Shown piece after piece: positions 28,730 through 46,282 of a DNA stretch of 53,833 nt. The position numbers were made by a program, and so were the translations under genes. Source of the stretch: Leisingera sp. ANG59 (GTDB lineage Bacteria; Pseudomonadota; Alphaproteobacteria; Rhodobacterales; Rhodobacteraceae); assembly GCF_013317235.1 (NCBI RefSeq), contig NZ_WLCM01000030.1, positions 1 through 53,833 of the forward strand, given 5' to 3'. Numbering within the stretch: position 1 is the first letter of the stretch; every line of letters begins with the position of its first letter. Below the pieces are notes generated by a model that worked only from the letters and a program-made list of their open reading frames with translations, had not been told where the DNA came from and ran no database searches.

Positions 28730-28731
28730 CA

Positions 28732-28750
28732 AGGACTTTGGTCGAATACC
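28732..28750 (+). promoter_or_regulatory. Copy of the PQQ-island 19-bp motif (site E)
   Basis: CAAGGACTTTGGTCGAATA matches the pqqA-side consensus at 11 of 19 positions and keeps the GGAC and GGTCG-A blocks. It lies about 117 bases upstream of the aldehyde dehydrogenase start. It is the most diverged of the usable copies. Confidence 0.4.
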
Positions 28751-28866
28751 GCGGCTTCTGCCGATGGGATAAACCTTTAGGCAGCACCGGACCGAGTGCC
28801 TGCAATCGAAGGTGCATGGCCGCCAGTTCCGCTGCATTTCTTGGATCAATTCTTGGGAGGAATGGC

Positions 28867-30411
28867 ATGAACATCCACACGAACGGGCTGGCCAACGCGG
28901 CACTGGACACGGCGCATCTGGGCGTCGATTTTCCGTTCAAGCCGCGTTATGGCAACTTTATCAACGGCGAATTCACCGAGCCTCGCTCGGGCCAGTATTT
29001 CGAAAACACCACTCCGATCACCGGCGATGTGATCTGCGAGATTGCCCGGTCCAACGCGGAGGATGTCGAGGCAGCCCTGGACGCGGCCCATGCGGCGTTT
29101 CCGGCCTGGGGCAAGACCTCGACCACCGAGCGCGCCAACATGCTGCTGAAGATCGCCGATATCATGGAGGAAAACACCCAGCTGCTGGCGGCGGCAGAGA
29201 CGCTGGACAACGGCAAGCCGATCCGCGAGTCGATCCACGCCGACCTCGCGCTCTGTGTGGATCACTGGCGCTATTTCGCGGGCTGCATCCGCGCCGAGGA
29301 AGGCCATATCTCCGAAATTGACGCCGACACCTATGCCTATCACATTCCGGAACCGCTGGGCGTGGTCGGGCAGATCATCCCGTGGAATTTCCCGCTGCTG
29401 ATGGCGGTGTGGAAGCTGGCGCCGGCGCTGGCGGCTGGCAACTGCGTGGTGCTGAAACCGGCGGAGCAGACCCCGGCCTCGATCATGGTGCTGGCGGAGC
29501 TGATCGCCGGGGTGCTGCCGGCAGGCGTCCTGAACATCGTCAACGGCTTCGGGCTGGAGGCGGGCAAGCCGCTGGCCTCGTCGAACCGGATCGCCAAGAT
29601 CGCCTTTACTGGTGAGACCACCACCGGGCGGCTGATCATGCAGTATGCCAGCCAGAACCTGATTCCGGTGACGCTGGAGCTGGGCGGCAAGTCTCCGAAC
29701 ATCTTCTTCGAGGATGTGATGGCCGCCGATGACGCCTATTTCGACAAATGCCTGGAAGGCTTCACCATGTTTGCCCTGAACCAGGGCGAGGTCTGCACCT
29801 GCCCCAGCCGGGCGCTGATCCAGGAGTCGATCTACGACGACTTCATGGCCCGCGCCATCGAACGGGTGAAGGCTGTGAAGCAGGGCAACCCGCTGTCGAT
29901 GGACACGATGATCGGCGCTCAGGCCTCGACCGAGCAGAAGGAGAAGATCGCCTCCTACCTGCAGCTGGGCAAGGATGAGGGCGCCGAGCTGCTGACCGGC
30001 GGCAATGTCTCTGCCCTGGAAGGGCTGGAAGGCGGTAACTATATCGAGCCGACGGTGTTCAAGGGCCACAACAAGATGCGGATTTTCCAGGAGGAGATCT
30101 TTGGCCCTGTGCTGTCCGTGACCACCTTCAAGGACGATGCCGAGGCGCTTGAGATCGCCAATGACACGCTTTACGGGCTGGGCGCCGGCGTGTGGACCCG
30201 CGACACCAACCGCGCGTTCCGCTTTGGCCGCGACATTCAGGCGGGCCGGGTCTGGACCAACTGCTATCACGCCTATCCGGCCCATGCGGCCTTTGGCGGC
30301 TACAAGCAGTCGGGCATCGGGCGGGAAACCCACAAAATGATGCTGGATCACTACCGGCAGACCAAGAACCTGCTGGTCAGCTACAGCCCCAATGCGCTGG
30401 GGTTCTTCTGA
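28867..30411 (+). CDS. exaC: NAD+-dependent aldehyde dehydrogenase (ExaC/AcoD-like)
   Basis: The 514-residue cytoplasmic dehydrogenase carries [19 protein letters not shown], catalytic Glu271 (LELGGKSPN) and catalytic Cys310 in [15 protein letters not shown]. The [11 protein letters not shown] sequence is typical of the ExaC/AldB/AcoD acetaldehyde dehydrogenases used in ethanol oxidation. It would oxidise the aldehyde formed by the quinoprotein alcohol dehydrogenase to the acid. ATG 28867 has GGGAGG upstream. It is followed by a DUF779 gene, its usual neighbour. Gene symbol by analogy with Pseudomonas aeruginosa exaC. Confidence 0.9.
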
Positions 30412-30428
30412 ACAGCCGTGTGACGGGC

Positions 30429-30458
30429 GGCCCCGGGTTTCCGGGGCCGTTTCTTTTT
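30429..30458 (+). terminator. Hairpin with U-rich tail between aldehyde dehydrogenase and DUF779 gene
   Basis: GGCCCCGG (30429-30436) pairs with CCGGGGCC (30441-30448) around GTTT, followed by GTTTCTTTTT. It has the form of an intrinsic terminator, yet the DUF779 gene follows within 25 bases in the same direction. It may attenuate rather than end transcription. Confidence 0.7.
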
Positions 30459-30480
30459 CATTCAGCCGGGGGAGTGTGCA

Positions 30481-30828: not shown

Positions 30829-30845
30829 GGCGCGCCGCGCCTTGG

Positions 30846-33047
30846 TCAGGACAGCGCGCGCTCCAGGAAGCCGCGCAGCTCGCCGGTGTCGATCGGCTTG
30901 TGCAGCAGCGCCGCGTTCAGCCCGGCGCAGGCCGCCGCCAGATCCGGTGAGCGGTTGGCGGTCACCAGGCAGGCTGGAACCGGGCCGTGCTGCGCCCGGA
31001 GCGCAGCAATCGCATCGGTTCCCAGCGCACCGTCGTCCAGCTGGTAATCGGCGATGATCGCGTCCGGGCCGATGTCGATTTCCTGCAGCAGCGCAAGGGC
31101 GTCGGCGCAGCTGGCGCAGGGCAGCACGTTCAGCCCCCAGCTGTCGAGCGTGATCTCCAGCGCTGCCCTGAGGCCGGCGTCGTTCTCGATCAGCACCACG
31201 ATCCGGTTTTCGAACGGGACCGCGGCGCCGGTGCCGCGGCCGGGCAGCGGCGATGGCGCGCGCGTAACCGTGCTCAGCGGCAGCTCCACCGAAAAGCAGG
31301 TGCCGCGGCCGACCTCCGAGGTGAGGTTCAGCGGATGTTCCAGCAGCCGGCAGGCCCGCTCGACAATGGCGAGACCCAGCCCCATGCCGTCCGACGGGCT
31401 GGCCTTGGCGTTGAGCCGCTGAAACTCCTGGAACACCCTGTCCTGATGCTCCGGCGGGATGCCGGGGCCGGTGTCGCGGACTTCGAGCAGCACCCGGCCG
31501 CGGCGTTGCCGCACCCCGATCAGCACCTTGCCGCTGGTGGTGTAGCGCACCGCGTTGGAGGCGAGATTCTGCAAGATTCGGCGCAGGTAGGCGGCGTCGC
31601 TTTCCACCATCGCGCCGCTGCGCACGACCCGGAATTCCAGCCCCTTGAGCCGGGCGACAGGTTCCAGTTCGTCCTTCAGCTGGTCCAGCATGCCACCCAG
31701 GCTGATGGCGGTCCGGTCGATTGCCGCCAGGCCGGAGTCGAGCTTGGAAATGTCCAACAGGGCGCCAAGGATGCGCTCGACCGCGACCAGTGCGTTGCCG
31801 GCCTTGGCCGCCCGGTCCCTGAAGCCCGCATCCTGCAGGTTGTCCTCCAGCGAGCCGACATAGAGCTTGGCGGCGGACAGCGGCTGCAGCAGGTCGTGGC
31901 TGGCGGCGGCGACGAACCGCGACTTGGAGGCATTGGCGCGCTCCGCCTCCGACAGCGCGTCCTCCAGCTCCAGCGTCCGTTCGGCCACCCGCTGCTCCAG
32001 CGTTTCGTTGACCTGGGAAATGGTGCGGACCGCGGCGCGTTCAGCGGTGACATCGGTAAAGCTGATGACAAAGCCCTTGTCCGGCATCTGCTGCGCAAAG
32101 ACCGCCAGGATTCGGTCGCGGCCCAGTCCGATCTCGAACGACAGGGGCGCCCGCTTGGCGGTGCTGGCCACCCAGGCCTCGACCTCTTCCGGCCGGGTGC
32201 CGCCGAGCAGGCGGATGCTGTCCCCGGCCTGGCGGTAGAGGGTGGCGAAATACATGCCCAGCTGGAACTTGCCCGCAGGCATTGACAAGAGCTCTCCGGC
32301 GCGGCGGTTCCAGCCGACCAGGCGGTTCTGGGCGTCGAAGATGCAGACCCCCTGGTCGAGATGCTCCAGCGTTGCCTTGATCACCCGCGACTGGTCGTCG
32401 AGCAGCCGCTCGCGCTCCTGCCGCTCCAGCCGCATCATGTCGGTGATGTCGGTCTGCAGGATTACGGTGCCGCCGTCCGGGGTGCGGTGCTCGCTGACCT
32501 GCAGCCAGCTGTTGCCGGCCATCATCACGTTGAACACCGCGTGATCGTCCTTGTGGCGGGCGATCCGGTAGGCCTCCCAGTCGGCGGCGGTCTCCCCCTC
32601 CGGCAGCGCCAGATGGGCGCTGGTTGCCACCAGGTTCACGTAATCGGCGAATTTCAGCCCCGGCCTCAGCAGATGGTAGATATCGGCCATGTGCTTGCCG
32701 AACCGGGTGTTGCACATGACCAGCACGTCCTGTGCGTCAAACAGCGCAAAGCCTTCCTGCACCGTCTCGATCGCATTGGCCAAGTTGGCGCGGGCGGCCT
32801 CGGTCTCGGCATTGGCCAGCGCCAGCCGGGCGTTCGACTCGTTGAGCAGGTCCAGCGCGTGCTCCAGCTCGCGGGTGCGCAGGCGCACCTCCTCCTCCAG
32901 CATCACCGCGCGCTGGAACTGGGCGTAGGCCTCGCCGGAGGCTTCCGAGCTCTGCTCGGCCCGGCGCATCAGGGTCTCGACGATCTTCAGCAGCTTCTGG
33001 TTCTGCCGCTCCGGCGGGTCGCGGGGGTCAATCAACTCATGCACCAT
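30846..33047 (-). CDS. Hybrid sensor histidine kinase with PAS domains and receiver (ErcS'-like)
   Basis: The 733-residue protein has an N-terminal coiled coil (about 15-95), two PAS-type segments (about 96-205 and 225-340), a HisKA dimerisation domain with His384 in AAASHDLLQPLSAAK, an ATPase domain (GMGLGLAIVERAC), and a C-terminal receiver with Asp667 in IIADYQLDDG. No membrane segment is seen, so it is probably cytoplasmic. The layout fits the ErcS'/NahK-type kinases of Pseudomonas ethanol-oxidation (exa) regulation. It is cotranscribed with a FIST protein (gap three bases) and a LuxR response regulator, its likely partners. Confidence 0.88.
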   Translation of the reverse strand: MVHELIDPRDPPERQNQKLLKIVETLMRRAEQSSEASGEAYAQFQRAVMLEEEVRLRTRELEHALDLLNESNARLALANAETEAARANLANAIETVQEGFALFDAQDVLVMCNTRFGKHMADIYHLLRPGLKFADYVNLVATSAHLALPEGETAADWEAYRIARHKDDHAVFNVMMAGNSWLQVSEHRTPDGGTVILQTDITDMMRLERQERERLLDDQSRVIKATLEHLDQGVCIFDAQNRLVGWNRRAGELLSMPAGKFQLGMYFATLYRQAGDSIRLLGGTRPEEVEAWVASTAKRAPLSFEIGLGRDRILAVFAQQMPDKGFVISFTDVTAERAAVRTISQVNETLEQRVAERTLELEDALSEAERANASKSRFVAAASHDLLQPLSAAKLYVGSLEDNLQDAGFRDRAAKAGNALVAVERILGALLDISKLDSGLAAIDRTAISLGGMLDQLKDELEPVARLKGLEFRVVRSGAMVESDAAYLRRILQNLASNAVRYTTSGKVLIGVRQRRGRVLLEVRDTGPGIPPEHQDRVFQEFQRLNAKASPSDGMGLGLAIVERACRLLEHPLNLTSEVGRGTCFSVELPLSTVTRAPSPLPGRGTGAAVPFENRIVVLIENDAGLRAALEITLDSWGLNVLPCASCADALALLQEIDIGPDAIIADYQLDDGALGTDAIAALRAQHGPVPACLVTANRSPDLAAACAGLNAALLHKPIDTGELRGFLERALS

Positions 33048-33050
33048 CGC

Positions 33051-34220
33051 TCAGCCCTCGTCCGGCGGGTAGATCGCCACCCCGGTCAGGGTCTGGTTGA
33101 CATGCATCGAGTTGATCTGCTCGCCATAGGTCGAAAAGCCGACCACCCTGTTGTCGCGCAGGATGCGGGAAATGTCCTGCGAGACCTGCTTCTGCTGCGC
33201 TTCCAGCCGCCGCAGGATGCAGTCGCAGGCCAGGATGATCTCGGGGCGGCGCTTGGCGCTGAGCGCGGCCATCTCGCGCTCCAGATGGGTCACCATGTCC
33301 TCCGGCTCGGCCAGGGTCAGCACCACGCCCTCGTCGATGGCGGAGAAGAACACCAGCTCGTCATTGTCGGCGACCCGCTGGATGGCGCGCACATGGTGCT
33401 GGTCGCCGAATTGCACCGCGACGGGATGCGCGGCAAAGGTGAAGGCGGTCAGCTGCTCCGGGTCCTTGCCCAGCACCCGGGCGTATTCGCGGGCGGCGGG
33501 TTCGGCATTGATCTCATGCACCACCCGGCGGGCGGGATCGGCCCCGGTCACCACCATGCGCTTTTGCGACGGGATCAGGTGGTCAGTCTTGAACACCTTG
33601 ATCGGGCAGCGGCTGCGGACCTGGATCAGAATGGCGGCGTTGGAATGGGCCTGGCCGCCATGCAGCACATAGGTCTTGCCGAAGTTGGTGCCGTCGCCCG
33701 CCGAGCCGCCGAAAAAGGCCACCGGCCCCAGCCCTACCGCCAGCTGCGAGGTCAGCGCGTCCTCCTTGGTGGAGAGCCCGTCGACCAGCAGGAAGGTGAA
33801 GTCGGAGATCCAGCCGCCGGCCTCCTGCGCCATGTGGCTGCGGTTTCGGATCATCCGCTCGATCACGCTGTGCGGATCGAAGCTGCCGAGATCCTCAATC
33901 AGGATGGTGCGGGTCTGGAAATGCGACTGTGCAAAGCCGATGGCGACGATTTCGCCCTCGACATAGCCGGCTGCCGAAATCTCCCCCGCGGTGGTGCAGC
34001 CGACAACCTGCGCCGGGGCGAACCGCCGTTGCGCCTCGCCGATCAGCCGGTCAACGTCGGTGTCCGGCGACAGGAACAGCACCACCAGCGACAGGCCGTT
34101 CGGGTTCAGCGCCTGGGCCAGCTGTTCGACGGCGTCCGGCGCCCGGCAGTCGACCGAGCCGGACCGGACAACCTGCGGCTCCGCCACGGGCGCGCCTGAC
34201 GGGCCATCGACAGGGTCCAT
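33051..34220 (-). CDS. FIST-domain sensor protein
   Basis: The 389-residue protein has an N-terminal FIST_N domain (about 40-230; QVVGCTTAGEISAAGYVEGEIVAIGF, then FFGGSAGDGTNFGKTYVLH) and a FIST_C domain (about 240-380). FIST domains are ligand sensors for small molecules, proposed to be amino acids, often paired with kinases. It lies 33 bases after the response regulator and three bases before the kinase, suggesting a complex with that kinase. ATG 34220 with AGGAG upstream was chosen over an in-frame TTG at 34238. Confidence 0.88.
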   Translation of the reverse strand: MDPVDGPSGAPVAEPQVVRSGSVDCRAPDAVEQLAQALNPNGLSLVVLFLSPDTDVDRLIGEAQRRFAPAQVVGCTTAGEISAAGYVEGEIVAIGFAQSHFQTRTILIEDLGSFDPHSVIERMIRNRSHMAQEAGGWISDFTFLLVDGLSTKEDALTSQLAVGLGPVAFFGGSAGDGTNFGKTYVLHGGQAHSNAAILIQVRSRCPIKVFKTDHLIPSQKRMVVTGADPARRVVHEINAEPAAREYARVLGKDPEQLTAFTFAAHPVAVQFGDQHHVRAIQRVADNDELVFFSAIDEGVVLTLAEPEDMVTHLEREMAALSAKRRPEIILACDCILRRLEAQQKQVSQDISRILRDNRVVGFSTYGEQINSMHVNQTLTGVAIYPPDEG

Positions 34221-34253
34221 CCTCTTTCTCCTCCCCAAATTCCGCCCGTCAGA

Positions 34254-34949
34254 CTAGGCGGGCGGCGGCGCGTCTTGCAAGACGTTTGCAAAGCTCGCCT
34301 GCTTGGCGGCCAGCACCGCCTGGGTGCGGCTTTGCACCCCCAGCTTGCGCATGATGGCGGTAATATGGGCCTTGACCGTGGTCTCGGCGATCGACAGCTC
34401 GTAGGCGATCTGCTTGTTCAGCTTGCCTTCGCAGATCAGTTGCAGGATCCGGGCCTGCTGATTGGTCAGCTGCGACAGCCGCTGCAGCACGTCGTCGCTG
34501 CTGTCGGCATTGTCATCGAGCAGCACGCAGCCGTCGGGCAGGAACACCTTGCCCTGATTGATTGCTTCCACCGCCTTCTGGAACACGTCGCGCTGGCTGT
34601 GCTTGGGAATGAAACCGTTGGCGCCGGCATGGATCACCGAGCTGACGATGCGGTTGTCGGCCATAGAGGAGACCACCAGGATCGGGCAGTCCGTCACCTT
34701 GCGCAGCCGCAGCAGCCCGTCCAGCCCGTTGACGTCGGGCAGGTTCAGGTCCAGCACCACCAGGTCGATGCGGATGCCTTCGGCGATCATGTCGAGCGCG
34801 GCCTGCAGGGCCGGCGCGGTGTGCATGCTGCTAATTGCGGTGACCGCCTGCAGTGTCATCGCCAGGGCGTCGCAGAACAGCGGGTGGTCATCCACCAGCA
34901 GCGCCGCGTGGAACCCTGGGGTGGTCGGCGTGTCCGTGTGTGTCGGCAT
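34254..34949 (-). CDS. LuxR/NarL-family response regulator (AgmR/ErbR-like)
   Basis: The 231-residue protein has a receiver (about 14-130: acidic pair Asp20-Asp21, phosphoacceptor Asp67 in VVLDLNLPDVNG, Lys in FIPKHSQ). A C-terminal LuxR-type HTH (about 160-220) has LTNQQARILQLICEGKLNKQIAYELSIAETTVKAH. It resembles AgmR/ErbR and PedR-type activators of quinoprotein operons in Pseudomonas. ATG 34949 is the likely start; an in-frame TTG at 34988 is possible. It leads the regulator-FIST-kinase operon and has a copy of the island motif (35003-35028) upstream, suggesting autoregulation. Confidence 0.88.
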   Translation of the reverse strand: MPTHTDTPTTPGFHAALLVDDHPLFCDALAMTLQAVTAISSMHTAPALQAALDMIAEGIRIDLVVLDLNLPDVNGLDGLLRLRKVTDCPILVVSSMADNRIVSSVIHAGANGFIPKHSQRDVFQKAVEAINQGKVFLPDGCVLLDDNADSSDDVLQRLSQLTNQQARILQLICEGKLNKQIAYELSIAETTVKAHITAIMRKLGVQSRTQAVLAAKQASFANVLQDAPPPA

Positions 34950-35002
34950 ATCTGCACCAGAGCTGTTGTTTTCCTGCCAGCTTAGCAAGCGGGCGGCAGC
35001 AG

Positions 35003-35028
35003 CGGTATACGCCTAAAGTCGCATATGG
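35003..35028 (+). promoter_or_regulatory. Copy of the PQQ-island motif (site F)
   Basis: CGGTAT followed by ACGCCTAAAGTCGCATATGG lies about 54 bases upstream of the response-regulator ATG 34949. Aligned without gaps to site D (36947) it shares CGGTAT, the GTCG core and flanking A residues. It is more diverged than sites A-D. Confidence 0.4.
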
Positions 35029-35091: not shown

Positions 35092-36858
35092 TCAGTCCGC
35101 CTGCGCCAGCTGGCGGGGCAGGCGGAACGTCCAGACCATGCCGCCCTGGTTCAGATAGTTGACCTTCTTGGCGACCTCGCCGCCCCACAGCGGCACCGCG
35201 CCGCCCCAGCCGGACACGACAGAGACATACTGCACGCCGTCCTGTTCCCAGGTGACGGGCTGGCCGACGATGCCGGAGCCGGTCTGGAACGACCACAGCT
35301 CCTCGCCGGTCTCGTCGTCAAAGGCGATGAAGCGGCCCTCGGGAGTGCCGGTGAACACCAGCCCGCCCGCGGTGGTCATCACCCCGGCCCAGAGCGGCGC
35401 GTCGTTCTTGTATTCCCACTTGATCTCGCCGGTGTCCGGGTCGATCGCCTTGAGGCTGCCGATATGGTCCTCGTAGTTCGGCTTGATGGTGAAGCCCGCA
35501 CCCAGGTAGGCGGCGCCCTTCTTGTAGCTGATCGGCTCGTTCCAGATGTCCATACCCCATTCGTTCGAGGGCACATAGAAATTACCGGTGTTTTGCGAGA
35601 ACGCCATCGGCATCCAGTTCTTGCCGCCCAGGAACGACGGCGAGGCAAAGATCACCTCCCCCTTGTTGCCATCGGCTGCGTCCGCCGGGTTTCCGGGGCG
35701 GTTTTCCTCGACAAAGACCGGGCGGCCGGTGTCGTCGATGCGCTCGGCCCAGGTGATGTCCTTGACGAAGGGCGTTGCGCTGACGAATTTGCCGTCCTCG
35801 CGGTTCAGGACATAGAAAAAGCCATTGCGGTCGGCGGTGGCGAAGCGCTTGTTGCCGCTGCGGTCGGAATAGGCGACCACCTCGTTGACGCCGTCATAGT
35901 CCCAGCCCTCGCGCGGAGTAGTCTGGAAGTGCCACTTGATCTCGCCGTTGGAAGGGTCGATGCCGATGCGGCTGGCGGCATAGAGGTTGTCGCCGGTATT
36001 GCCCTCCACCGGGGTGCCGGCGTTGCGCAGGTGGCTGTTCCAGGGCGCCGGGTTGCCGGCGCCGAAGACCAGCGTGTCGGTCTCCGCATCATAGGAGCCG
36101 CCGAGCCAGGTGGCGCCGCCGCCAGTCTTCCACATGTCGCCCGGCCAGGTGGCGTTCAGGGTGCCGGTCATGGTGCTTTCCTCACCCTTGAAGGTGCCCA
36201 TGTGGCCCTCAATCACCGGCCGGGTCCAGACCAGCTCGCCGGTTTCAGCGTCGCGCGCCTGCACCTCGCCGACAATGCCGAACTCGCCGCCGGAGTTGCC
36301 GGTGATCACCAGCCCGTTGACGATCAGCGGCGCCGCGGTCAGCGAATAGCCGGCCTTGTAGTCGGCCACCTTCTTGCGCCACTTCACGTCGCCGGTCTTG
36401 AGGTCCAGCGCCACGATGCGGGCGTCCAGCGTGCCGAAATAGAAGGTGTCGCCATAGATCGCGCCGCCGCGGTTCACCACGTCGCAGCAGGGCAGGATGC
36501 CTTCGGGCAGCCGGGCGTCGTACTGCCAGATTTCGCGGCCGGTCTCGACGTCGATGGCATAGACCCGGCTGTAGGAGCCGGTGATATACATGATGCCGTC
36601 ATAGATCAGCGGCTGGGTCTCCTGACCGCGCTGCTTTTCGCCGCCGAGGCTGAAGGCCCAGGCGGGCACAAGGTTTGCGACGTTGTCCCTATTCAGCGTG
36701 TCCAGCGGGCTGTAGCGCTGCAGGTGGCGCCCCATCCCGTTGGTCACCACCTGGGTGGTGGTTGTCTGGTCGTTCCTGAGGTCGTCCTCGGTGACCCCGG
36801 CGTGGCTGACGCCCGCCATCATGGTCCCTGCGGCGACCGCCGTGATGAAGCGGTTCAT
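35092..36858 (-). CDS. PQQ-dependent alcohol dehydrogenase, lanthanide type (ExaF/PedH-like)
   Basis: The 588-residue periplasmic quinoprotein has a signal peptide (about 1-20) and an eight-bladed propeller. PQQ contacts include the vicinal disulfide Cys124-Cys125 ([11 protein letters not shown]). The catalytic base region reads GWDYDGVNE, with Asp320 followed two residues later by Asp322. Asp at that second position is the mark of lanthanide-binding quinoproteins (XoxF, ExaF, PedH); calcium enzymes have Ala or Ser. By length and neighbours it is closer to ethanol dehydrogenases (ExaA/ExaF/PedE/PedH) than to XoxF methanol dehydrogenase. ATG 36858 follows GGAGGAG. It would oxidise primary alcohols, passing electrons to the cytochrome c550 encoded at 41415. 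Confidence 0.9.
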
Positions 36859-37091
36859 TGGGCTCCTCCCTTTCATTGGATCATCAACAGCCACTGCCCG
36901 GTGCGGGCTGCCGGCCTGCCACAGTATCCAAGGCGCGCCGGAAGAGCGGTATTGCACAATGGTCGTAAGCGGAGGGCGGCAGGGGCAGGGGGGAGGGCCC
37001 GGCACGGCAGCGCCCGGCGCCTTGCGGCCCGGGTTTGCGGTGCAGGCCCCGCGCTGCGTCAGCCTGCGGCGCGGAGCGGGGCGGTTCAGCC
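36859..37091. other. Upstream region of the quinoprotein gene
   Basis: A 233-base spacer between the ABC permease gene and the quinoprotein gene, both reverse. It contains site D (36947-36972) and presumably the quinoprotein promoter. No other signal or gene was recognised. Confidence 0.5.
36947..36972 (+). promoter_or_regulatory. Copy of the PQQ-island motif (site D)
   Basis: ATTGCACAATGGTCGTAAG (36951-36969) matches the consensus ATTGGMCNWWRGTCGTAGG without gaps. It starts 89 bases upstream of the quinoprotein gene ATG, a distance compatible with an activator site. Confidence 0.55.
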
Positions 37092-38602: not shown

Positions 38603-39057
38603 CGGATGGTGATCTCCAACCGCTGGGTGTCGCCGGTGGAGCCGGGCACCTTGAGGTGGTAATTCCCAGGCTTCAGCGCGATGAAGCCGATCTCCATCTC
38701 GCCGGCCTCGTCGAACTCGATGCTGTCGAGCCCCAGCGGGCGGATCTCGAGGCCCTCCACTACGATCTCGTCGATCCAGATTGCGCGGAAGAACTCCGCC
38801 CCCGTTAGCGCCAGTTCCTGGCTGCCGTCGCCCTGGATCTCGAACTCGTAATATGTGCCGGAGTTCAGCACCCAGGGTGCATCGGCCAGCGGCATTCCCG
38901 CCGACAGGGTGATGGGCGGCAGGTCCTCCTTGTTGGCAGCGGACAGCAGCCCGGCAAGGCCAAAGCCGGCCTTGCCCGGATCATCACCGTCAGCGGCCAG
39001 GGCGGCGGCCGGCAGCGCAAGGCACAGCGCCGCGGCGAAAAGGCGGGAGTTCAGCAT
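38599..39057 (-). CDS. Exported protein of unknown function in the PQQ operon
   Basis: The 152-residue protein has a signal peptide (about 1-22, cleavage near ALAA) and no recognised domain. The mature part is acidic and beta-rich: a YYEFEIQGDGSQELALTGAEFF segment, then FDEAGEMEIGFIALKPGNYHLKVPG, reminiscent of a cupredoxin-like or Ig-like sandwich but without an obvious metal-ligand set. It lies 49 bases after the beta-propeller gene and overlaps the ATPase start by four bases, so it belongs to the ABC system, perhaps as its periplasmic partner. No function can be given. Confidence 0.75.
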   Translation of the reverse strand: MLNSRLFAAALCLALPAAALAADGDDPGKAGFGLAGLLSAANKEDLPPITLSAGMPLADAPWVLNSGTYYEFEIQGDGSQELALTGAEFFRAIWIDEIVVEGLEIRPLGLDSIEFDEAGEMEIGFIALKPGNYHLKVPGSTGDTQRLEITIR

Positions 39058-39106
39058 CGGGGATCCTCCTGTCAGGATGCGCCGCGCCGCCGGGGCGCAG
39101 CAAGTC

Positions 39107-40084
39107 TCAGGGGCGCAGTGCTGCGCCCCAGGGAAAACGGCCGACCTTGATCGACTTCAGCGCCTGGCGCCGGGCGGTGTCGATCACGGTGACATCTCCG
39201 GACACGCCGTTGGTGGTGAACAGCAGCGACTTGTCGGGCGAAAACGCCATGTGCCAGACCCGGCGGCCGACCAGGATGTAATCCTCCACCTCCAGCGTCT
39301 CAGCATTGACCACCGCCACATGGTTGGAAGGCCCCAGCGCCACAAAGGCGGTCTGTTCATCATTGGTGAAGGCAAACCCGACTGGCTGCACCCGGTCGGG
39401 GTGCACGCCCTTGACATCAAAGGTTATCTTGCCTGTCTCGGCCTGGGTGGCGGTGTCGAAGACGGTGATGGTGCCGCCGATCTCGGAGGAGACCCACAGC
39501 GCGCTGCCGCCGGCGGTGAATTCAGCGTGACGGGGGCGGGCGTCGACCAGAGTGTTGGCAAACAGCTGTTGCGTCTGCGTGTCGATCCAATGCGCCATGT
39601 TGGTGGTCTCGGAGGTGGTGATTGCGATCCGGCCATCGGGCGAGACCGCCATGCCCTCGGGCTCGATCCCGACATTGATCTGGGCAACCACCTTGCGGGT
39701 TTCCGTATCCACCACCGTGGTCACGGCGTCGTCCTCGTTGGCGATGTAGAGATGCCGGTCGTTGGGATGCAGCACGAATTGCTCGGGATCCTCGCCGGAA
39801 GGCAGGTCGTGCAGGATCTCGCCGGTGGCGGCATCCAGAACCTGGACCGTGTCGCTGTCGGAGGCGCAGACATAGACCCGCGAGAAATCCTTGGAGAAGG
39901 TGATGCCGCGCGGCCGCTCCCCCGTTGCGATGGTGCGGACCACCTCAAGCGTGGCGATGTCGATCACGCTGATGGTGTCGTCCTTTTCATTGGTCACCCA
40001 GATTTCCGCGGCGCCTAGGGGCGGCGCCGGGGCCAGCAGCGCCGAGAGGGCGAGGGCGGCAAGGGATTTTGCAGCAAATGTCAT
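39107..40084 (-). CDS. PQQ-dependent catabolism-associated beta-propeller protein
   Basis: The 325-residue exported protein has a signal peptide (cleavage near LGAA). About seven YVTN-type beta-propeller repeats follow; each has an IDTxTxxVV-like strand and a GxxPxGMAVSPDG-like turn (for example IATGERPRGITFSKD, VGIEPEGMAVSPDG). It fits the propeller protein of PQQ-linked operons (TIGR03866 style). No PQQ-binding cysteine pair is present, so it is probably not itself a quinoprotein. ATGA overlap with the upstream binding protein. Its role is unknown. Confidence 0.87.
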   Translation of the reverse strand: MTFAAKSLAALALSALLAPAPPLGAAEIWVTNEKDDTISVIDIATLEVVRTIATGERPRGITFSKDFSRVYVCASDSDTVQVLDAATGEILHDLPSGEDPEQFVLHPNDRHLYIANEDDAVTTVVDTETRKVVAQINVGIEPEGMAVSPDGRIAITTSETTNMAHWIDTQTQQLFANTLVDARPRHAEFTAGGSALWVSSEIGGTITVFDTATQAETGKITFDVKGVHPDRVQPVGFAFTNDEQTAFVALGPSNHVAVVNAETLEVEDYILVGRRVWHMAFSPDKSLLFTTNGVSGDVTVIDTARRQALKSIKVGRFPWGAALRP

Positions 40085-41244
40085 TGGAAGGCTCCGCAGC
40101 GGCTTTCGGGCGCATCAAGGCCCAGAGTGTCGAGTTCGCTGTGCTGGTGCAGGAAGCCGGGCAGGGGCGCCTGCGCCGCCAGCGCGCGGGGAGTGGCAAG
40201 CGGGATCGGTTGGCGCAGCTGGCCGTTCCAGCTGCGGTAGCTGAGCGGGCGGCCCTTGAAGCCGGCCAGCTCGAATGCGTCCGACAGCAGGTAGCGGCGC
40301 AGGACGCCCGCGTCGGACGAGCCGGTGCGGGTCACCGCCTCGCCGATGCTGCGTACCGCGGCCCAGGCGGCGTAATCCCGCGCCAGCATCTTGCGCCCGG
40401 CAAGCTCCTGGAACCGCGACTGCAGCTGCGCGGCGCCCCATTGCTCGACCACCGGCGCCCAGGCGGCGGGGACCAGGCCTTCGGAGCCGGCGACCGGCCG
40501 CGGCAGCCAGGTGTTGTAGGGCAGGTAGCGGGCGAAATCCTGCAGCTCGTCGGCGACCAGCAGCAGATCGTGGCGGCCCAGGCCCTGTGACATCAGCGGC
40601 ACCTCCTGGGCGGCGTTGCGGCGCATGTCGGCGCCATAGTCCCAGGTCCGTTCGGCGGCGATTTCCAGCCCGAACTTGGCGGCGCTCTGGCGCAAGGCAC
40701 CGGCAAAGGCCTGGTCCTGCGGGTTCTTGCCGGTGATCAGCGCCAGCCCGGTCCAGCGCTTGGACAGCGCAAACTGCATCAGCGCATCGCTGCGCATTAG
40801 GTCCGAGGGCAGGGTGTGCAACAGGTTGCGGCGGCAGTCGCCGCTGCGCAGGCCGGTGTCCGGGCTGGCGGTGTTGAACAGCAGCGCCTCCTGCGCCTCC
40901 GGCAGGGCGGCGGCGGCCAGCAGCGCCGGTTTGGGCGCATCCAGAATCAGCAGCGCGCTGCGTGCCAGCGCCGCCCGCGCCGCAGCGGCAAAATCGCCGC
41001 CAGGCGGCACTGCCACCGTCTCCAGGCTGTAGCTGTGGCCAAGGAAGCTGCCGGTGGTCCGGTTGTCTGCCAGCCCCAGCCGGGCGCCGGTCTCGCCCAG
41101 GTCCGCAGGCGGCGGGTCGAGATTGGAGAGGGTGGGGGGCTGCTGCTCCTGCTGTTTCAGGTAGATGACCGGCACCTCGAGCCCGGCGGCCGCGGCAAAG
41201 GCGGCGGGGCAGAGGGCCATCAGGAGTGTGATCAGAAAGCGCAT
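40081..41244 (-). CDS. ABC substrate-binding protein of the PQQ alcohol dehydrogenase system
   Basis: The 387-residue protein has a signal peptide (residues 1-20, MRFLITLLMALCPAAFAAAA) and a type I periplasmic-binding fold like branched-chain amino-acid binders (GDFAAAARAALARSALLILDAPKPA; RWTGLALITGKNPQDQAFAGALR). It fits the binding protein associated with PQQ-dependent alcohol dehydrogenase operons (TIGR03863 style). It is the first gene of the 41244-37092 operon, where it meets an exporter-like ABC pair rather than an importer, so it may be a periplasmic sensor or chaperone. The start at 41244 is set by the signal peptide; the ribosome site is weak. Confidence 0.82.
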   Translation of the reverse strand: MRFLITLLMALCPAAFAAAAGLEVPVIYLKQQEQQPPTLSNLDPPPADLGETGARLGLADNRTTGSFLGHSYSLETVAVPPGGDFAAAARAALARSALLILDAPKPALLAAAALPEAQEALLFNTASPDTGLRSGDCRRNLLHTLPSDLMRSDALMQFALSKRWTGLALITGKNPQDQAFAGALRQSAAKFGLEIAAERTWDYGADMRRNAAQEVPLMSQGLGRHDLLLVADELQDFARYLPYNTWLPRPVAGSEGLVPAAWAPVVEQWGAAQLQSRFQELAGRKMLARDYAAWAAVRSIGEAVTRTGSSDAGVLRRYLLSDAFELAGFKGRPLSYRSWNGQLRQPIPLATPRALAAQAPLPGFLHQHSELDTLGLDAPESRCGAFQ

Positions 41245-41301: not shown

Positions 41302-41325
41302 CCATTGGACCAAGGTCGTAGGCCG
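41302..41325 (+). promoter_or_regulatory. Copy of the PQQ-island motif (site A)
   Basis: ATTGGACCAAGGTCGTAGG (41304-41322) is the best copy of the motif. It sits in the divergent spacer between the binding-protein operon (ATG 41244, reverse) and the cytochrome gene (ATG 41415, forward), so it could serve either. Confidence 0.6.
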
Positions 41326-41336
41326 CCGGGGCCGGA

Positions 41337-41355
41337 GGCCGACTTAAGTCGCGTA
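41337..41355 (+). promoter_or_regulatory. Weak second motif copy (site G)
   Basis: GGCCGACTTAAGTCGCGTA shares the GAC and GTCG blocks at the same spacing as site A, but only 8 of 19 positions match. Its AAGTCGC-TA half also resembles site F. It is 60 bases upstream of the cytochrome gene. Tentative. Confidence 0.25.
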
Positions 41356-41414
41356 TCGGGGCAGGGCCTGGGCTGGCTATGGTTGCGGCAAGCTCAAACT
41401 TACGGGAGGAACTC

Positions 41415-42092
41415 ATGTTCAAATTGCCTCTTGCGGCCCTCGGGCTCGCGGCTCTTGCCACAACGGCGCAGGCCCACGGAGACGTCGCGCCGCAGCCTGT
41501 GAATACCGATGCCCTGCCCGAAGTGGGCGAAGAATGGCTGACCGAAAACCCCTATCGCGGCCAGGAGGCGGAAGTCTGGCAGGCGGCGATCGACATCGGC
41601 GGCAGCGGCTACAATCAGAACTGCGCCCGCTGCCACGGGCTCGGCGGCGTCTCCGGCGGGCTGGCCCCCGATCTGCGCTACCTGGAGGCAGAGGAAATGG
41701 GCGACGAATGGTTCGTGGAACGGTTCCGCACCGGCTACACCCAGAACGGCATCACCAAGATGCCCGCCTTCGGGGAACTGCTGGGCCAGAAGGCCGCCTG
41801 GGCCATCCGCACCTATTTGGAAACCCGGCCCGATGACGGCGCTCTGGACGAGGCCACCGGCCGGTTGCTGGAAATCCGCGATGAGCTGGCCGCGCTGGCC
41901 GGCGGCAGCGGCGGGGATGCGGCGGCGCTGCAGGCGGAGCTGTCGCAGATTGCGCAAGCGGTTGAAACCGGGTCCGGCGCGCCGGTAGCCGACAGCGCGG
42001 CCTACCGGGCGGCCAGCCTGATCGGCGGCGCGCAGCCGGACTTCGCCGGTGCCGCGGAGGCCCTGACCGTCGGCCTTTCGGCGGCGCACTGA
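41415..42092 (+). CDS. Cytochrome c550 (PedF-like)
   Basis: The 225-residue protein has a signal peptide (about 1-20, cleavage before HGDVAPQP), one haem-c site Cys70-Ala-Arg-Cys73-His74 (NCARCHGLGG) and a likely Met axial ligand in ITKMPAFGEL. The C-terminal 70 residues are an alanine-rich helical tail. It fits the cytochrome c550 associated with PQQ alcohol dehydrogenases (PedF in Pseudomonas putida, ExaB functionally) and would take electrons from the quinoprotein to the oxidase. GGGAGGA precedes ATG 41415. The XoxJ-like gene follows after 18 bases. Confidence 0.88.
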   Translation: MFKLPLAALGLAALATTAQAHGDVAPQPVNTDALPEVGEEWLTENPYRGQEAEVWQAAIDIGGSGYNQNCARCHGLGGVSGGLAPDLRYLEAEEMGDEWFVERFRTGYTQNGITKMPAFGELLGQKAAWAIRTYLETRPDDGALDEATGRLLEIRDELAALAGGSGGDAAALQAELSQIAQAVETGSGAPVADSAAYRAASLIGGAQPDFAGAAEALTVGLSAAH

Positions 42093-42110
42093 CACGGAGG
42101 GGCGCGGCAT

Positions 42111-43013
42111 ATGAGACAGCAGCTGGCCGGGCTTCTTGCGATTGCCGCGCTGGCCTGCGGCTGGGCGCAGGCGGGGCAGGCCCGCTGTGCGGATCATGTG
42201 CCGCAGCCCAAGCCGCAGAACGCCTCGCGCGATATCGTCGGTCAGGATCTTGAGACTATCCTCGAACGCGGTTTCATCACCTTTGCGGCCTATGAGGATT
42301 TTCCCCCCTGGTCCTATCAGGAGGCGGGCCGCATCAAAGGCGCCGACATCGACCTGGCCCGGCTGATTGCGGCGGAGCTGGGGGCCGAGGCCCGGTTCAC
42401 GCTGGTTGCGGCGGGCGAGACGCTGGATGCGGACCTGCGCAACTGGATCTGGAAGGGGCCGGTCGTGGGCGGCAGCGTGGCCAACGTCATGCTGCATGTG
42501 CCCTATTACAGCGAATTTGCCTGCCGGGTCGAACAGGTGGTGTTCACCGGCCAGTACCATGTCGAGGAGGTGGCCATCGCCTACCGCCGGGACGCCTATC
42601 CCGAAGACCCGCCGGTGCCGGCCTATTTCCGCTTCGACAGCGTCGCGGTGGAGAACGACTCGATTGCCGATTTCTACCTCTCGTCCTTTCCGGGCGGCCA
42701 GCTGAGCGGCAATATCCGCCGCTATCCGACGGCGGCAGCGGCCATGGCGGGCCTGGACCGGGCCGAGACCAAGGCGGCGATGGGGCCGCTGGCGCAGCTA
42801 GAGGCCGGGCTGACCGCGCAGACAGCCGTTCACACGCCGCCGCTGCCCGGGTTTTCCGCAGGCACCTGGACCGCCGGTGTGGCGGTTCATTTTTCCTATC
42901 GCCCGCTTGCTTATGCGGTGGAGGACGCCATTGCCGCCGCGCTGCAGGACGGCCGGATTGCTGCCATCTTTGCGGCCCACGGCCTGAGCCACCGGCCGCC
43001 GCAGCTGCGCTGA
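42111..43013 (+). CDS. Quinoprotein-associated periplasmic binding protein (MxaJ/XoxJ/PedG-like)
   Basis: The 300-residue protein has a signal peptide and the family 3 solute-binding fold of MxaJ/XoxJ proteins: ITFAAYEDFPPWSYQEAGRIKGADIDLARLIAAELG near the N-terminus, VGGSVANVMLHVPY, and ENDSIADFYLSSF. Such proteins are encoded beside quinoprotein dehydrogenases; a role in loading or activating the enzyme has been proposed for XoxJ. It follows the cytochrome gene closely and ends six bases from the converging ApbE gene. Confidence 0.85.
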   Translation: MRQQLAGLLAIAALACGWAQAGQARCADHVPQPKPQNASRDIVGQDLETILERGFITFAAYEDFPPWSYQEAGRIKGADIDLARLIAAELGAEARFTLVAAGETLDADLRNWIWKGPVVGGSVANVMLHVPYYSEFACRVEQVVFTGQYHVEEVAIAYRRDAYPEDPPVPAYFRFDSVAVENDSIADFYLSSFPGGQLSGNIRRYPTAAAAMAGLDRAETKAAMGPLAQLEAGLTAQTAVHTPPLPGFSAGTWTAGVAVHFSYRPLAYAVEDAIAAALQDGRIAAIFAAHGLSHRPPQLR

Positions 43014-43019
43014 TCCTGT

Positions 43020-43922
43020 CTACCCCAGTGTTTTCACGCTGCCATCCGGCGCCAGCAGGGTGGCACTGGCGCCGCCCGGAAAGCGCGCCAGCGCGGCGGT
43101 GATTTCCTCTTCATTCATCAGGCAGAAGGCGGTGGAGGCCGCATCGGCCAGCGCGGCGCTGGCGGCCTCGGTGCTGACGGTGGCCCACTGCGGCCGGCGG
43201 TCGAGGGCGGGGTGCAGGATATGCGCGGCACCCCGCAGCTGCAGGGCACCGGGGCTGGAGGTGGCGATGGCGCCACCGGTCAGGCTGCGGGCGGCAAAGA
43301 CGCCTCGCTCCGGGTCGGCCAGGCCGATACGGAACGGGCCGCCAAGTGCCGCAAACTCCCCGGCATTGACCAGAACCCGATCCAGCCCCAGGCGGTTAAG
43401 TGCTGCGCGGACCATGTCGGTGGCAAAGCCCTGGGCAATGCCATTGAAGGTCAGCGCCTGGCCCGGTGCCAGCCGGATCGCCTGTTCTGTCACGGACAAC
43501 TTGTGCCAGCCGGTGAGGCGGGCAGCCCTGCTGATGCCGTCTCCGCGCGCAAGGGCCTGCCACAGCGGCTGCACTGTGGGGTCGAATACGCCTGCCGTTG
43601 CAGCGTGCACCAGGGTGCAGAGCCGGGCCAGATGCAAAAACGGCGGCGGCGGGTTTTTCAGAAACCCGGTCCGGTTCAGCCGGGACAGGGCAGACGCCGG
43701 ATCATAAAGGCTGAACAGTTGTTCGGCCTGCCGCAGCTGCGACAGCGCGGCAGCAATTGCCCGGTCTGCCAGGCGCGGCGGCGCGTAGATGGTCAGGCGC
43801 GCCTCCGCGCCGAAGGCAGACCCGCGCCAGGTAACGGGCGCGGCCCGCGCCGCCGGCGCCGCTGCGCCAAGCGCGGCAGCAGAGATTGCCAGGAACCGGC
43901 GGCGGGTCAGTTGTGCGCTCAT
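43020..43922 (-). CDS. apbE: FAD:protein FMN transferase (ApbE)
   Basis: The 300-residue exported protein has a twin-arginine leader (LTRRRFLAISAAALG, residues 6-20). It carries ApbE core motifs: EQLFSLYDPASALSRLNRTG, FNGIAQGFATDMV, VNAGEFAALGG, and a C-terminal DAASTAFCLMNEE. ApbE uses FAD to attach FMN covalently to a Thr of a periplasmic or membrane protein. The obvious acceptor is the NosR-like protein whose stop codon overlaps this start (ATGA at 43919-43922). ATG 43922 was preferred to the longer in-frame reading. Confidence 0.9.
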   Translation of the reverse strand: MSAQLTRRRFLAISAAALGAAAPAARAAPVTWRGSAFGAEARLTIYAPPRLADRAIAAALSQLRQAEQLFSLYDPASALSRLNRTGFLKNPPPPFLHLARLCTLVHAATAGVFDPTVQPLWQALARGDGISRAARLTGWHKLSVTEQAIRLAPGQALTFNGIAQGFATDMVRAALNRLGLDRVLVNAGEFAALGGPFRIGLADPERGVFAARSLTGGAIATSSPGALQLRGAAHILHPALDRRPQWATVSTEAASAALADAASTAFCLMNEEEITAALARFPGGASATLLAPDGSVKTLG

Positions 43923-46003
43923 TCCGCGGCCTCCAGATGTTGTTTCCGGCGCGCCGCCAGGATCAGCGGCACGCAGCGGGCTGGATCGTCGTGGATTGAC
44001 ACGCAGTCGAGGCAGCCGAAGCATTCGTCATAGCGGACCACGCCGGATGGCCCGATCGCGCCATAGGCGCATTTCACCCGGCACAGCTGGCAGGGGCTGC
44101 CGCAGGCGGCGCGCCGGGCAATCCAGTTGCGCTGTCGCAGCAGCCCGCCAGCCGCCATGGCCGCGCCCAGCGGGCACAGATAGCGGCAAAAGGGCTTGAA
44201 CAGCACCAGACCCGCCGCCAGCCAGAAGACCGCATAGGCGGTGAAATACCACTCGCGCAGGAAGTAGGTGGTGATCGCGGTCTTGAAGGGTTCGACCTCG
44301 GCCGCGGTGTCCACATGTTCCGGCGCCAGGAAAACCAGCGATACCAGCCCGGCCAGCACCCCGTACTTGAGGTATCTGAGCCGCCCGTCCCAGGCCGGCG
44401 GAAGGGCGGTCCGCGGCAGACCCAGCCTGCGGCCAAGATGGTGCGCGAATTCCTGCAGCGCGCCGAACGGGCACAGCCAGCCGCAGAACAGGGCCCGCCC
44501 CCACAGGACAAGCCCGAGGATGGCAAAGCCCCAGAGCAGCAGCGAAAACGGGTCATAGGCAAGAAAGGCAAAGCTGCCGCCCTCGGCCGCGGCGCGCAAA
44601 ACGCCCAGAACGGTGACGATGGACAGCTGGCCCTGGCCCCACCAGCCGGCAAACAGGGTGACAGCTGCCAGCACTGCGAGCCGCAGCGGGGTCAGGGCCT
44701 CGCGGGCGGCGATCCGGCCTTGGCGCAGCAGCAGCGCGGCGGTCAGCGTGGTCAGTAGCAGCGCCAGCAGGGTCAGGTCGGTGCTGCGGCTGCGCAGCGC
44801 CTCCAGCCAGGGCGGCATCGGTGCCGGGGCCTCGTCGCGCAGGAAAAACCGTTCGGGGGTCCGGTGCGTGACAGGAAATTCCACGGTGCCTGTCTCGGGC
44901 TGGAACATGCCGTGCGCGCGCACCGCCTGGGCGTGCAGGGTCCACTCCCGCGCTGGATCAAAGCCGAGGCGGCGGTCGGCCCGCAGGATCATCGCCGTGC
45001 CTTCGTGCAACGGGCCGGGCAGATCCGGCGACAGATCCACCAGCAGGTCGCTGTCCCGCAGCGCCACCGGCAGGCCGTTCTGGGTGGCAAACACCCGGTC
45101 CGGCGCGGTGTTGCGGATGAATTCCGGGCTAACCAGCCCGTGGCGGCCGGTCTCGACCAGCAACAGCGGCTCATCATCGGGGGAGATCGCCAGGAAATCC
45201 TGCAGCTCATTGTAACCGTCGCGAGAGAGGACCGCCTGCGCAATTGAAGGCGGGCCGAGGTCGATAATCCAGAGATCCAGATAGGGCGCCTCAGGGTGTT
45301 GCTGCCCCTCCGGATCGTCATCCGCCCACAGGGTGCCGGCAAAGGCCGCATCAACCTCCGCGTTGGAGACAGTGGCGCGGGCGGCCAGTCCCTGATCCGC
45401 CAAGGCCACCCAGTCCAGCGGCTCGCTGTGGTCCGGGTCAGGCCGGGCCGGGGGCGTGGTGATGACGCCGTGCATCTTCTCGCGCGCGACCGCCAGCGCT
45501 GCCGCCATCACCGAGTCATGCGCGATCCGTACTGACGCGGTCGCCTTGCTGACCCCGTCGAGATAGACCAGGGATGAGCCGGAACCGGTCTCTCCGTAGG
45601 GGGTGCCGACGGTGATCGCCGAAAAGACCGACAGGCCGGGGTACTGCTCGAAGAACTTGTGGAACGGGGCAGGGCCAAGCCCGGAGACAAAGACCGGCTC
45701 GTTATGGTTGATCAGCCGGACATCCAGAAATTTGCCGTTCAGTTCCATGAGCACCAGCATGTTGACCGGCGCCCCCGAAAACCCGGGCAGCGGGGCCAGG
45801 GGTTCGGTTTCAAAGGCATAGCCTGCCTCCGCCCCGCCGGAGTTGAGCAGCGTGTAGACGCCCTTGCCGTTCACCGGCTCCCCCAGGGAGAACGGCGGCA
45901 TGATCAGGGCGCTGATCTCCTCGCGCGGCAAGGGTGACGCTGACAACGCACCAGCCGCAAGCAGCCAGGCCTGAATCAGAAGTATGGATAGGAGCGCGCG
46001 CAT
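43919..46003 (-). CDS. NosR/NirI-like FMN-binding, 4Fe-4S membrane protein
   Basis: The 694-residue protein has a signal peptide, then a periplasmic FMN-binding domain (about 70-180). Its flavinylation motif Asp149-Gly-Val-Ser-Lys-Ala-Thr155 places Thr155 as the FMN acceptor. A middle periplasmic region is followed by about five to six membrane segments and a C-terminal ferredoxin-like part with CGWLCPFGALQ, CRYLCPLGAAM and CQLCRVKCAYGAI / ECFGCLDCVSIH cysteine sets (several 4Fe-4S sites). This is the NosR/NirI architecture, but nos genes are absent; here it sits divergent to pqqA with ApbE downstream. ATG 46003 starts at the signal peptide. An electron-transfer role across the membrane is inferred. 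Confidence 0.85.
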   Translation of the reverse strand: MRALLSILLIQAWLLAAGALSASPLPREEISALIMPPFSLGEPVNGKGVYTLLNSGGAEAGYAFETEPLAPLPGFSGAPVNMLVLMELNGKFLDVRLINHNEPVFVSGLGPAPFHKFFEQYPGLSVFSAITVGTPYGETGSGSSLVYLDGVSKATASVRIAHDSVMAAALAVAREKMHGVITTPPARPDPDHSEPLDWVALADQGLAARATVSNAEVDAAFAGTLWADDDPEGQQHPEAPYLDLWIIDLGPPSIAQAVLSRDGYNELQDFLAISPDDEPLLLVETGRHGLVSPEFIRNTAPDRVFATQNGLPVALRDSDLLVDLSPDLPGPLHEGTAMILRADRRLGFDPAREWTLHAQAVRAHGMFQPETGTVEFPVTHRTPERFFLRDEAPAPMPPWLEALRSRSTDLTLLALLLTTLTAALLLRQGRIAAREALTPLRLAVLAAVTLFAGWWGQGQLSIVTVLGVLRAAAEGGSFAFLAYDPFSLLLWGFAILGLVLWGRALFCGWLCPFGALQEFAHHLGRRLGLPRTALPPAWDGRLRYLKYGVLAGLVSLVFLAPEHVDTAAEVEPFKTAITTYFLREWYFTAYAVFWLAAGLVLFKPFCRYLCPLGAAMAAGGLLRQRNWIARRAACGSPCQLCRVKCAYGAIGPSGVVRYDECFGCLDCVSIHDDPARCVPLILAARRKQHLEAAE

Positions 46004-46036
46004 GTTCGGAAGTCTGCCGGGGGCAGCGCCAGCGTG

Positions 46037-46060
46037 CCATTGGACCAAAGTCTGAGGCCG
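46037..46060 (+). promoter_or_regulatory. Copy of the PQQ-island motif (site B)
   Basis: ATTGGACCAAAGTCTGAGG (46039-46057) is identical to site A at 16 of 19 positions. It lies just upstream of the NosR-like gene (ATG 46003, reverse) in the 150-base spacer shared with pqqA. Confidence 0.55.
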
Positions 46061-46074
46061 CGCAATGACCCTGT

Positions 46075-46097
46075 CCCTACGACCAAAGGCCAATACC
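46075..46097 (-). promoter_or_regulatory. Copy of the PQQ-island motif (site C)
   Basis: On the reverse strand ATTGGCCTTTGGTCGTAGG aligns with site A without gaps at 15 of 19 positions. It ends about 56 bases upstream of pqqA. With site B, which has the opposite orientation, it gives each side of the divergent promoter its own copy. Confidence 0.6.
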
Positions 46098-46261: not shown

Positions 46262-46282
46262 TCGCGAAACAGGAAAACGGCC

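Follow-up and report, generated by a model that had tools for sequence, protein, structure and literature searches.

Here, we propose that a 20-bp dyad recurring in a pyrroloquinoline quinone (PQQ) island of Leisingera sp. ANG59 is the operator of a NarL/FixJ-type response regulator, a known kind of site, and that the regulator encoded within the island (34257-34949) probably binds it and so switches on PQQ-dependent alcohol oxidation, the binding being predicted from sequence. The DNA analysed, referred to here as the window, is a stretch of 53,833 nucleotides (contig NZ_WLCM01000030.1, assembly GCF_013317235.1). The site itself is real and conserved, and the proposal draws on the form of the dyad, on how widely it is conserved upstream of orthologous genes, on a common distance to -10-like hexamers, on how seldom it occurs elsewhere in the genome, and on linkage with one clade of regulators.

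Each of seven putative transcription units in the window has its own dyad and a -10-like hexamer with 3 or 4 of 6 matches to TATAAT, chosen as the best of offsets +30 to +34 from the dyad centre. The sites, with their matrix scores (see below), are as follows:

28729..28748, forward strand: dyad O1, for the exaC-type aldehyde dehydrogenase (ATG 28867) and a DUF779 gene; score 14.7; -10-like GATAAA at 28768-28773, forward strand, offset +30
35006..35025, reverse strand: dyad O2, for the regulator cassette itself (likely ATG 34949); score 18.0; -10-like TAAGCT at 34984-34979, reverse strand
36950..36969, reverse strand: dyad O3, for the PQQ alcohol dehydrogenase gene; score 16.6; -10-like GATACT at 36928-36923, reverse strand
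41303..41322, reverse strand: dyad O4, assigned by geometry to the divergent binding-protein/beta-propeller/ATP-binding cassette (ABC) operon; score 22.3; -10-like TACGCT at 41280-41275, reverse strand
41336..41355, forward strand: dyad O5, assigned by geometry to cytochrome c-550 PedF (ATG 41415); score 8.2; core GACTTAAGTC; -10-like TATGGT at 41378-41383, forward strand
46038..46057, reverse strand: dyad O6, for the NosR-like/ApbE operon (ATG 46003); score 19.3; -10-like CAGACT at 46016-46011, reverse strand
46076..46095, forward strand: dyad O7, for pqqABC(D)E (pqqA ATG 46154); score 16.6; -10-like TAGGCT at 46117-46122, forward strand

A preliminary description of this DNA had reported a motif before nearly every unit of the PQQ island, and each of the seven does have a dyad. 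The sequences it quoted are present (41304, 46039 and 36951 on the forward strand, 46076 on the reverse strand, 35003-35025 and 28732), its best site being O4, and the weaker relatives that it placed before the response regulator (35003) and the aldehyde dehydrogenase (28732) are borne out by scores of 18.0 and 14.7. Its six sites occupy ranks 1-6 of an independently trained matrix run over the window (22.3, 19.3, 18.0, 16.6, 16.6, and 14.7); its list was incomplete, having overlooked the seventh (O5, 41336-41355), in which the six innermost base pairs are all matched.

The matrix was obtained by de novo motif discovery in the 160-bp upstream regions of 77 non-Leisingera cytochrome genes. These came from the relatives of the window, defined as the best 80 of 218 loci found in a search with the PedF cytochrome (41415-42089); they are mostly Rhodobacterales, the nearest being Leisingera, and the Leisingera loci were excluded from training. 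The resulting model is a palindrome, TATTCGACCATGGTCGAATA, of 20 bp with the core GACC-NN-GGTC, a T at -8 and an A at +8 from the centre, and AT-rich arms, laid out as two half-sites of about 7 bases with 2 bases between them. Motif discovery was offered both strands, which favours a symmetric answer; both arms are also visible in one-strand alignments of each promoter class. On these two grounds we reject the asymmetric 19-mer of the preliminary description, in which ATTGG and GTCGTA at a constant spacing formed the unit: the unit is the dyad just described, and ATTGG...GTCGTA is one reading of its two arms. The dyads in the window are individually imperfect, with 3 to 7 of 10 base pairs matched as against 2.7 in random 20-mers.

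The dyad is rare. Seven matches in the window score at least 13, as against a mean of 0.3 in 100 Markov-1 simulations, and the one outside the six sites, at 23064, lies within an open reading frame. The highest single score in the simulated windows was 18.1 and the mean maximum 11.6, so that chance is excluded for the six sites taken together and not for each of the weaker ones by itself. A strict pattern, ATNNGACYWWRGTCNNAT, occurs with at most one mismatch at 3 places in the 5.33-Mb genome, all of them within this island, and across 400 kb sampled from that genome a single place reaches 14.7 and none reaches 16.

Conservation was assessed by scanning the 250 bp before each orthologous gene with the matrix trained on cytochrome promoters. 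Sites of at least 14 were found upstream of NosR-like orthologues (58/59), quinoprotein orthologues (56/68), and pqqA (15/17 relatives), so the motif is kept in related genomes before both pqqA and the quinoprotein. They also precede the binding protein in 78/78, in a spacer common with the cytochrome (the training promoter), the regulator in 13/54, and the aldehyde dehydrogenase in other loci in 3/8; about 3-5% of random 250-bp windows from the same loci reach this score. Two dyads of at least 10 stand before the cytochrome gene in 74 of the 80 relatives, a count that is circular for this training promoter. Genes inside the same islands gave no dyads of at least 12: the beta-propeller gene (0/78 relatives), the second binding protein (0/79), and the ABC permease (0/54). 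Upstream of the kinase gene 2/32 reach 14 and 8/32 reach 12, at a position inside the FIST reading frame (33118 in the window, score 11.3), which we read as coding constraint. Farther afield, three cytochrome loci from other alphaproteobacterial families (L188, L190, and L191) have upstream sites of at least 13 and three (L192-L194) have none, while upstream of pqqA no dyad of at least 12 stood among the three best matches of each of 30 pqqB loci, 14 outside the class. Outside Rhodobacterales, Pelagibius marinus (L047) has three tandem dyads before its cytochrome gene.

A second line of evidence is promoter geometry, for which the centre of the dyad nearest the gene served as the reference point in promoters with a site of at least 10 (11-12 near-duplicate loci excluded). 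A TA lies at +31 to +34 from the centre in cytochrome (63/67), binding-protein (46/66), quinoprotein (37/52), NosR-like (49/51), regulator (13/13), and pqqA (10/13) promoters, with 0-23% in shifted bins; the exceptions are three bins for the regulator, a small set, which reach 31%. The stricter TAnnnT occurs there in NosR-like (49/51), binding-protein (43/66), regulator (13/13), and pqqA (9/13) promoters, while the shifted bins lie at 0-8%, apart from a single bin for the regulator at 15%, and 71% of the 52 quinoprotein promoters have a GATAAT-like hexamer (at least 4 of 6 TATAAT matches) at +32. Spacers with two dyads between the cytochrome and binding-protein genes show the same spacing with direction: the distal dyad has TAnnnT toward the binding-protein gene in 45/63 and toward the cytochrome in 3/63, and the proximal dyad has it toward the binding-protein gene in 0/63. 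Each dyad thus serves one direction. Training on one promoter in other species predicts the others, which also have a common distance to the -10-like element, and this bears out the earlier suggestion of one operator for functionally linked promoters.

What binds the dyad? The predicted binder and the two other members of its cassette are:

34257..34949, reverse strand: LuxR/NarL-type response regulator, predicted binder (Response_reg PF00072, 70.5 bits; GerE PF00196, 72.8 bits)
33054..34238, reverse strand: NosP-like FIST protein (FIST and FIST_C; NosP model 405.2 bits, cut-off 450)
30849..33047, reverse strand: NahK/ErcS-like hybrid histidine kinase (PAS_7, HisKA, HATPase_c, Response_reg)

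The regulator has the receiver and GerE domains of the NarL/FixJ type, and its best-scoring solved structure is NarL (1a04). Within 34949-34988, its most likely start is ATG 34949 and not the TTG of the longest open frame; the -10-like hexamer is at 34984-34979. The hybrid kinase scores 355.8 bits on near_NosP_CTERM (cut-off 400) and 397.2 on NO_HK_NahK (cut-off 1500).

In a survey of 149 Rhodobacteraceae genomes, in which a regulator was counted at E <= 1e-30, it was present in 30/31 genomes with PedF and in 29/118 without (Fisher p = 5e-14, uncorrected for kinship). Nineteen PedF-free genomes with a closer regulator (E <= 1e-60) were then scanned over about 4 kb around the regulator, less at contig ends. 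Dyads of at least 14 were found at 11 of these 19 orthologous loci (12 sites), and for 11 of the 12 the bases at +31 to +34 on one strand begin a hexamer whose second letter is A and whose sixth is T (21% at random positions). Paralogous-regulator loci have no such dyad (0/20), including 17 in which kinase, FIST, and regulator genes stand together. In the regulator tree (rows with internal stops or short matches excluded), a single branch (99/93) has all the paralogues on one side, and PQQ-linked and PedF-free orthologues are intermixed. Since dyads lie beside PedF-free orthologues and none lie beside paralogues, the presence of the dyad tends to track the clade of the regulator and not the PQQ genes. 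The paralogues may be FlhR-type: of the 8 paralogue loci in genomes covered by both searches, 5 have a gene for glutathione-dependent formaldehyde dehydrogenase no more than about 13 kb away, and none of these has a dyad of at least 14. A formaldehyde regulon of the FlhSR/AfdRS/RfdRS type was considered as the target set and rejected, the dyad being upstream of only 1/30 glutathione-dependent formaldehyde dehydrogenase loci.

Other findings weigh against this reading of the operator. Eight of the 19 PedF-free orthologous-regulator loci have no site of at least 14 within about 4 kb. The recognition helix is nearly identical in orthologues and paralogues (four long-branch paralogues excluded), with one clear fixed difference, T190 as against A. 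Genomes matching the exact strict pattern (20 of the 149) have the regulator or PedF in 11/20, as against 60/149 overall, an enrichment too slight to serve as evidence. TAnnnT is rare at quinoprotein (7/52) and cytochrome (5/68) promoters. Autoregulation is not general, as only 17/54 regulator upstream regions have a site of at least 12; in the window, O2 would predict autoregulation of the cassette. Finally, in genome G219 (95% complete) a NosR-like orthologue (65% identical) is preceded by a dyad of 24.5 bits, yet the genome has no PedF and no regulator above 34% identity. On the other side of that dyad (L245) is an ABC-permease-like frame. In a less complete genome, G585 (76%), PedF and the NosR-like gene are present and no regulator was found.

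Several of these points bear on the alternative that survives best, namely that the dyad is a real island operator bound by another regulator, encoded elsewhere, that has targets in common with the cassette. It would explain why G219 keeps its dyad without a close regulator, and why the regulator's own promoter is below 12 in 37/54 relatives. Against it, dyads lie beside orthologous regulators without PedF (11/19) and never beside paralogues (0/20), and the ExaC site is kept in a genome with the regulator and no PedF (G563). On balance we hold another binder to be unlikely. The preliminary description had named the resident LuxR-type regulator; linkage (11/19 as against 0/20 loci) supports this without proving it, G219 remaining an exception.

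In light of the resident regulator being the probable binder, how might the operator work? The NahK-like hybrid kinase would sense a signal, which the NosP-like FIST protein might modulate, and this would lead to phosphorylation of the regulator. A dimer of the regulator would then occupy the dyad, centred near -43.5, where it would replace the -35 box and recruit sigma-70 RNA polymerase, with one dyad for each unit: ExaC, the regulator, the quinoprotein, the ABC/binding-protein operon, the PedF cytochrome, the NosR-like/ApbE operon, and pqqA-E. The position follows if the -10-like hexamer spans -12 to -7, and by this spacing the dyad lies just upstream of or overlaps the -35 region, which is where an activator would be expected relative to the predicted transcript starts. 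Between +7 and +13, where the dyad arm ends, no offset shows a TTGACA-like box (4 of 6) in more than 14% of promoters.

The same geometry bears on whether the dyad is instead a repressor operator or a site of mixed function. LuxR-type regulators can repress, and RfdRS, which has a related arrangement, is thought to do so according to the available part of a review (PMC4776306). A centre about 43.5 bp upstream of the predicted start with no TTGACA-like box is, however, the usual place of an activator, and we regard repression as distinctly improbable. As for a chance likeness of GC-rich spacers chosen by eye, we give it practically no credence: the preliminary consensus itself is only marginally over-represented in the window (4 matches at <=3 mismatches as against 1.37 expected, with 6/100 shuffles reaching 4) and a looser symmetric pattern that drops the outer A/T pairs shows no enrichment across the genome (73 as against 133 for a reversed control), but the independent training, the recovery of held-out promoters, the negative genes in the same islands, and the 400-kb sample reject it. 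The lack of enrichment of the looser pattern indicates that the arms matter.

The genes downstream of the dyads other than the regulator cassette are:

28867..30408, forward strand: acetaldehyde dehydrogenase ExaC (NF050026, 905.3 bits, cut-off 900)
35095..36858, reverse strand: PQQ-dependent methanol/ethanol-family dehydrogenase (TIGR03075, 761.6 bits, cut-off 480)
37095..41244, reverse strand: binding protein, beta-propeller, small protein, ABC ATPase, and permease, a putative operon (TIGR03863, TIGR03866, TIGR03864, and TIGR03861 over cut-off)
41415..43010, forward strand: cytochrome c-550 PedF (TIGR04494, 193 bits, cut-off 122) and family-3 binding protein (SBP_bac_3)
43023..46003, reverse strand: ApbE-like protein (our own reading, no NCBIfam match) and NosR-like membrane protein
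46154..49279, forward strand: pqqA, pqqB, pqqC, (pqqD), pqqE operon (TIGR02107, TIGR02108, TIGR02111, TIGR02109)

The NosR-like membrane protein scores 431 bits on TransRegNosR (cut-off 1000), and the small protein within the ABC operon (38602-39057, reverse strand) has no NCBIfam match.

Outside the window, the dyad leads to a further group of genes. Of the 11 PedF-free loci with a dyad, 10 were examined over a longer stretch; the dyad stood before coxG-coxS-coxL-coxM-like genes (named by similar frames) in 8, before coxS-L-M in L301, and before a coxG-like gene alone in L304. In L299 the products carry COXG, Fer2_2 (2Fe-2S), MoCoBD (molybdopterin), and FAD_binding_5, and the large subunit falls below the carbon monoxide (CO) dehydrogenase model (TIGR02416, 688.5, cut-off 991). 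All three large subunits read (L296, L299, and L303) contain AYRGAGR, given as the form II CoxL signature in the accessible text of PMC13240472. With this signature, molybdenum-hydroxylase subunits, and a score below the CO dehydrogenase model, the genes in relatives are form II CO dehydrogenase-like. The association extends to the PQQ island, since 37 of the 80 relatives have cox genes in the same fetched stretch as PedF (e.g. L036 11602-15959; some show coxG only), with coxG mostly starting about 1 kb past the end of the PedF gene. A dyad of at least 10 lies 58-77 bp before coxG in 23 of 31 loci checked out of these 37 (4 near-duplicates and 2 without a coxG match excluded).

One option is that the regulon has as its shared second half an enzyme that oxidises aldehydes, ExaC here and the form II "CO dehydrogenase" elsewhere. 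The eleventh of the PedF-free loci with a dyad is that of G563, the genome with the regulator and no PedF; its ExaC is 91% identical to that of the window, and a dyad of 21.7 bits lies about 130 bp upstream of the exaC ATG (128 bp in the window). Another contig of G563 holds a 19.8-bit dyad (L312 1706-1725). We tentatively suggest, while thinking it somewhat less probable than its opposite, that a Rhodobacterales NosP-NahK-LuxR-type regulon couples PQQ alcohol oxidation to form II "CO dehydrogenase", the same dyad driving ExaC or coxGSLM, and that the form II enzyme may be a molybdenum hydroxylase oxidising quinoprotein-made aldehydes, not CO. The present genome does have a form II cox operon on another contig (C21), but the stretches scanned there contain no dyad. 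The cox link thus fails here, which weighs against the coupling of ExaC and form II. The parts of the literature available describe the activity of form II CO dehydrogenase as unresolved (PMC13240472), note that recent work doubts CO as its substrate (PMC6794299), and mention regulatory or accessory roles (PMC12996764). Form II operons behind an alcohol-oxidation operator, often inside the PQQ island, offer a substrate class to try, and this coupling is the part that specialists would find new. More broadly, for a regulon found across Rhodobacterales there is now a candidate operator, of defined promoter geometry, that can be put to the test.

How does this operator compare with known systems? 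In the open-licence literature on regulators and operators (most subscription papers lying outside it), we found no published consensus for the dyad, which agrees with what the preliminary description had said. NarL operators have a 7-2-7 geometry with the heptamer TACYYMT. The dyad here, with 2 bases between half-sites of about 7 bp, is in line with this geometry, whereas its half-site, TNCGACC, differs from the heptamer. The RpuR site, by comparison, is a direct repeat in the portion of PMC9100948 at hand.

CrbR/ErdR, as far as the available part of PMC5715377 goes, is likewise a LuxR-type regulator; its site, an imperfect inverted repeat, spans -52 to -36 directly before a sigma-70 promoter, the position that the dyad has here. 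Yet the regulator in the window scores 157.6 bits on the ErdR model (cut-off 390), and the targets here serve PQQ alcohol oxidation, in contrast to acetate utilization (the ACTU motif) for CrbR/ErdR; ErdR targets have been mapped in P. aeruginosa (PMC9927353, seen in part). FlhSR of Paracoccus and AfdRS/RfdRS of Rhodobacter resemble the cassette here in having an extra open reading frame between the kinase and regulator genes (orf2/afdT/rfdT; PMC4776306, in its available part), and the available parts of PMC4776306 and PMC8879981 give no binding site for FlhRS or AfdRS/RfdRS.

The remaining comparison is with AgmR/ErbR (PedR1) of Pseudomonas. Pseudomonas-like pqqA upstream regions differ from those described here in having another element in common and not the window dyad. 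In the loci concerned (L089-L098, judged Pseudomonas-like from pqqA), C(C/G)AAAGTA(C/T)CAT lies upstream of pqqA in 9/10 (not L093), with TACCAA upstream of it in several; it is possibly an AgmR-type site there. The ped-cluster papers, in the portions available, describe AgmR/PedR1 with PedS1 and a NosP/GfdT gene and give no operator (PMC12997753, PMC13390443). There a LuxR-type regulator is listed near a NahK/ErcS'-type hybrid kinase and a NosP/GfdT-type gene and controls PQQ alcohol oxidation (PMC12997753, PMC13390443, on the same partial view); the LuxR-type regulator of the window stands beside NahK-like and NosP-like genes that score below the model cut-offs, and would control the same process. 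The likeness extends to the predicted targets: pqq genes, a quinoprotein dehydrogenase, cytochrome c550, and an acetaldehyde dehydrogenase make up an AgmR/ErbR-type set, and in the window these families are over cut-off, each unit with its own dyad.

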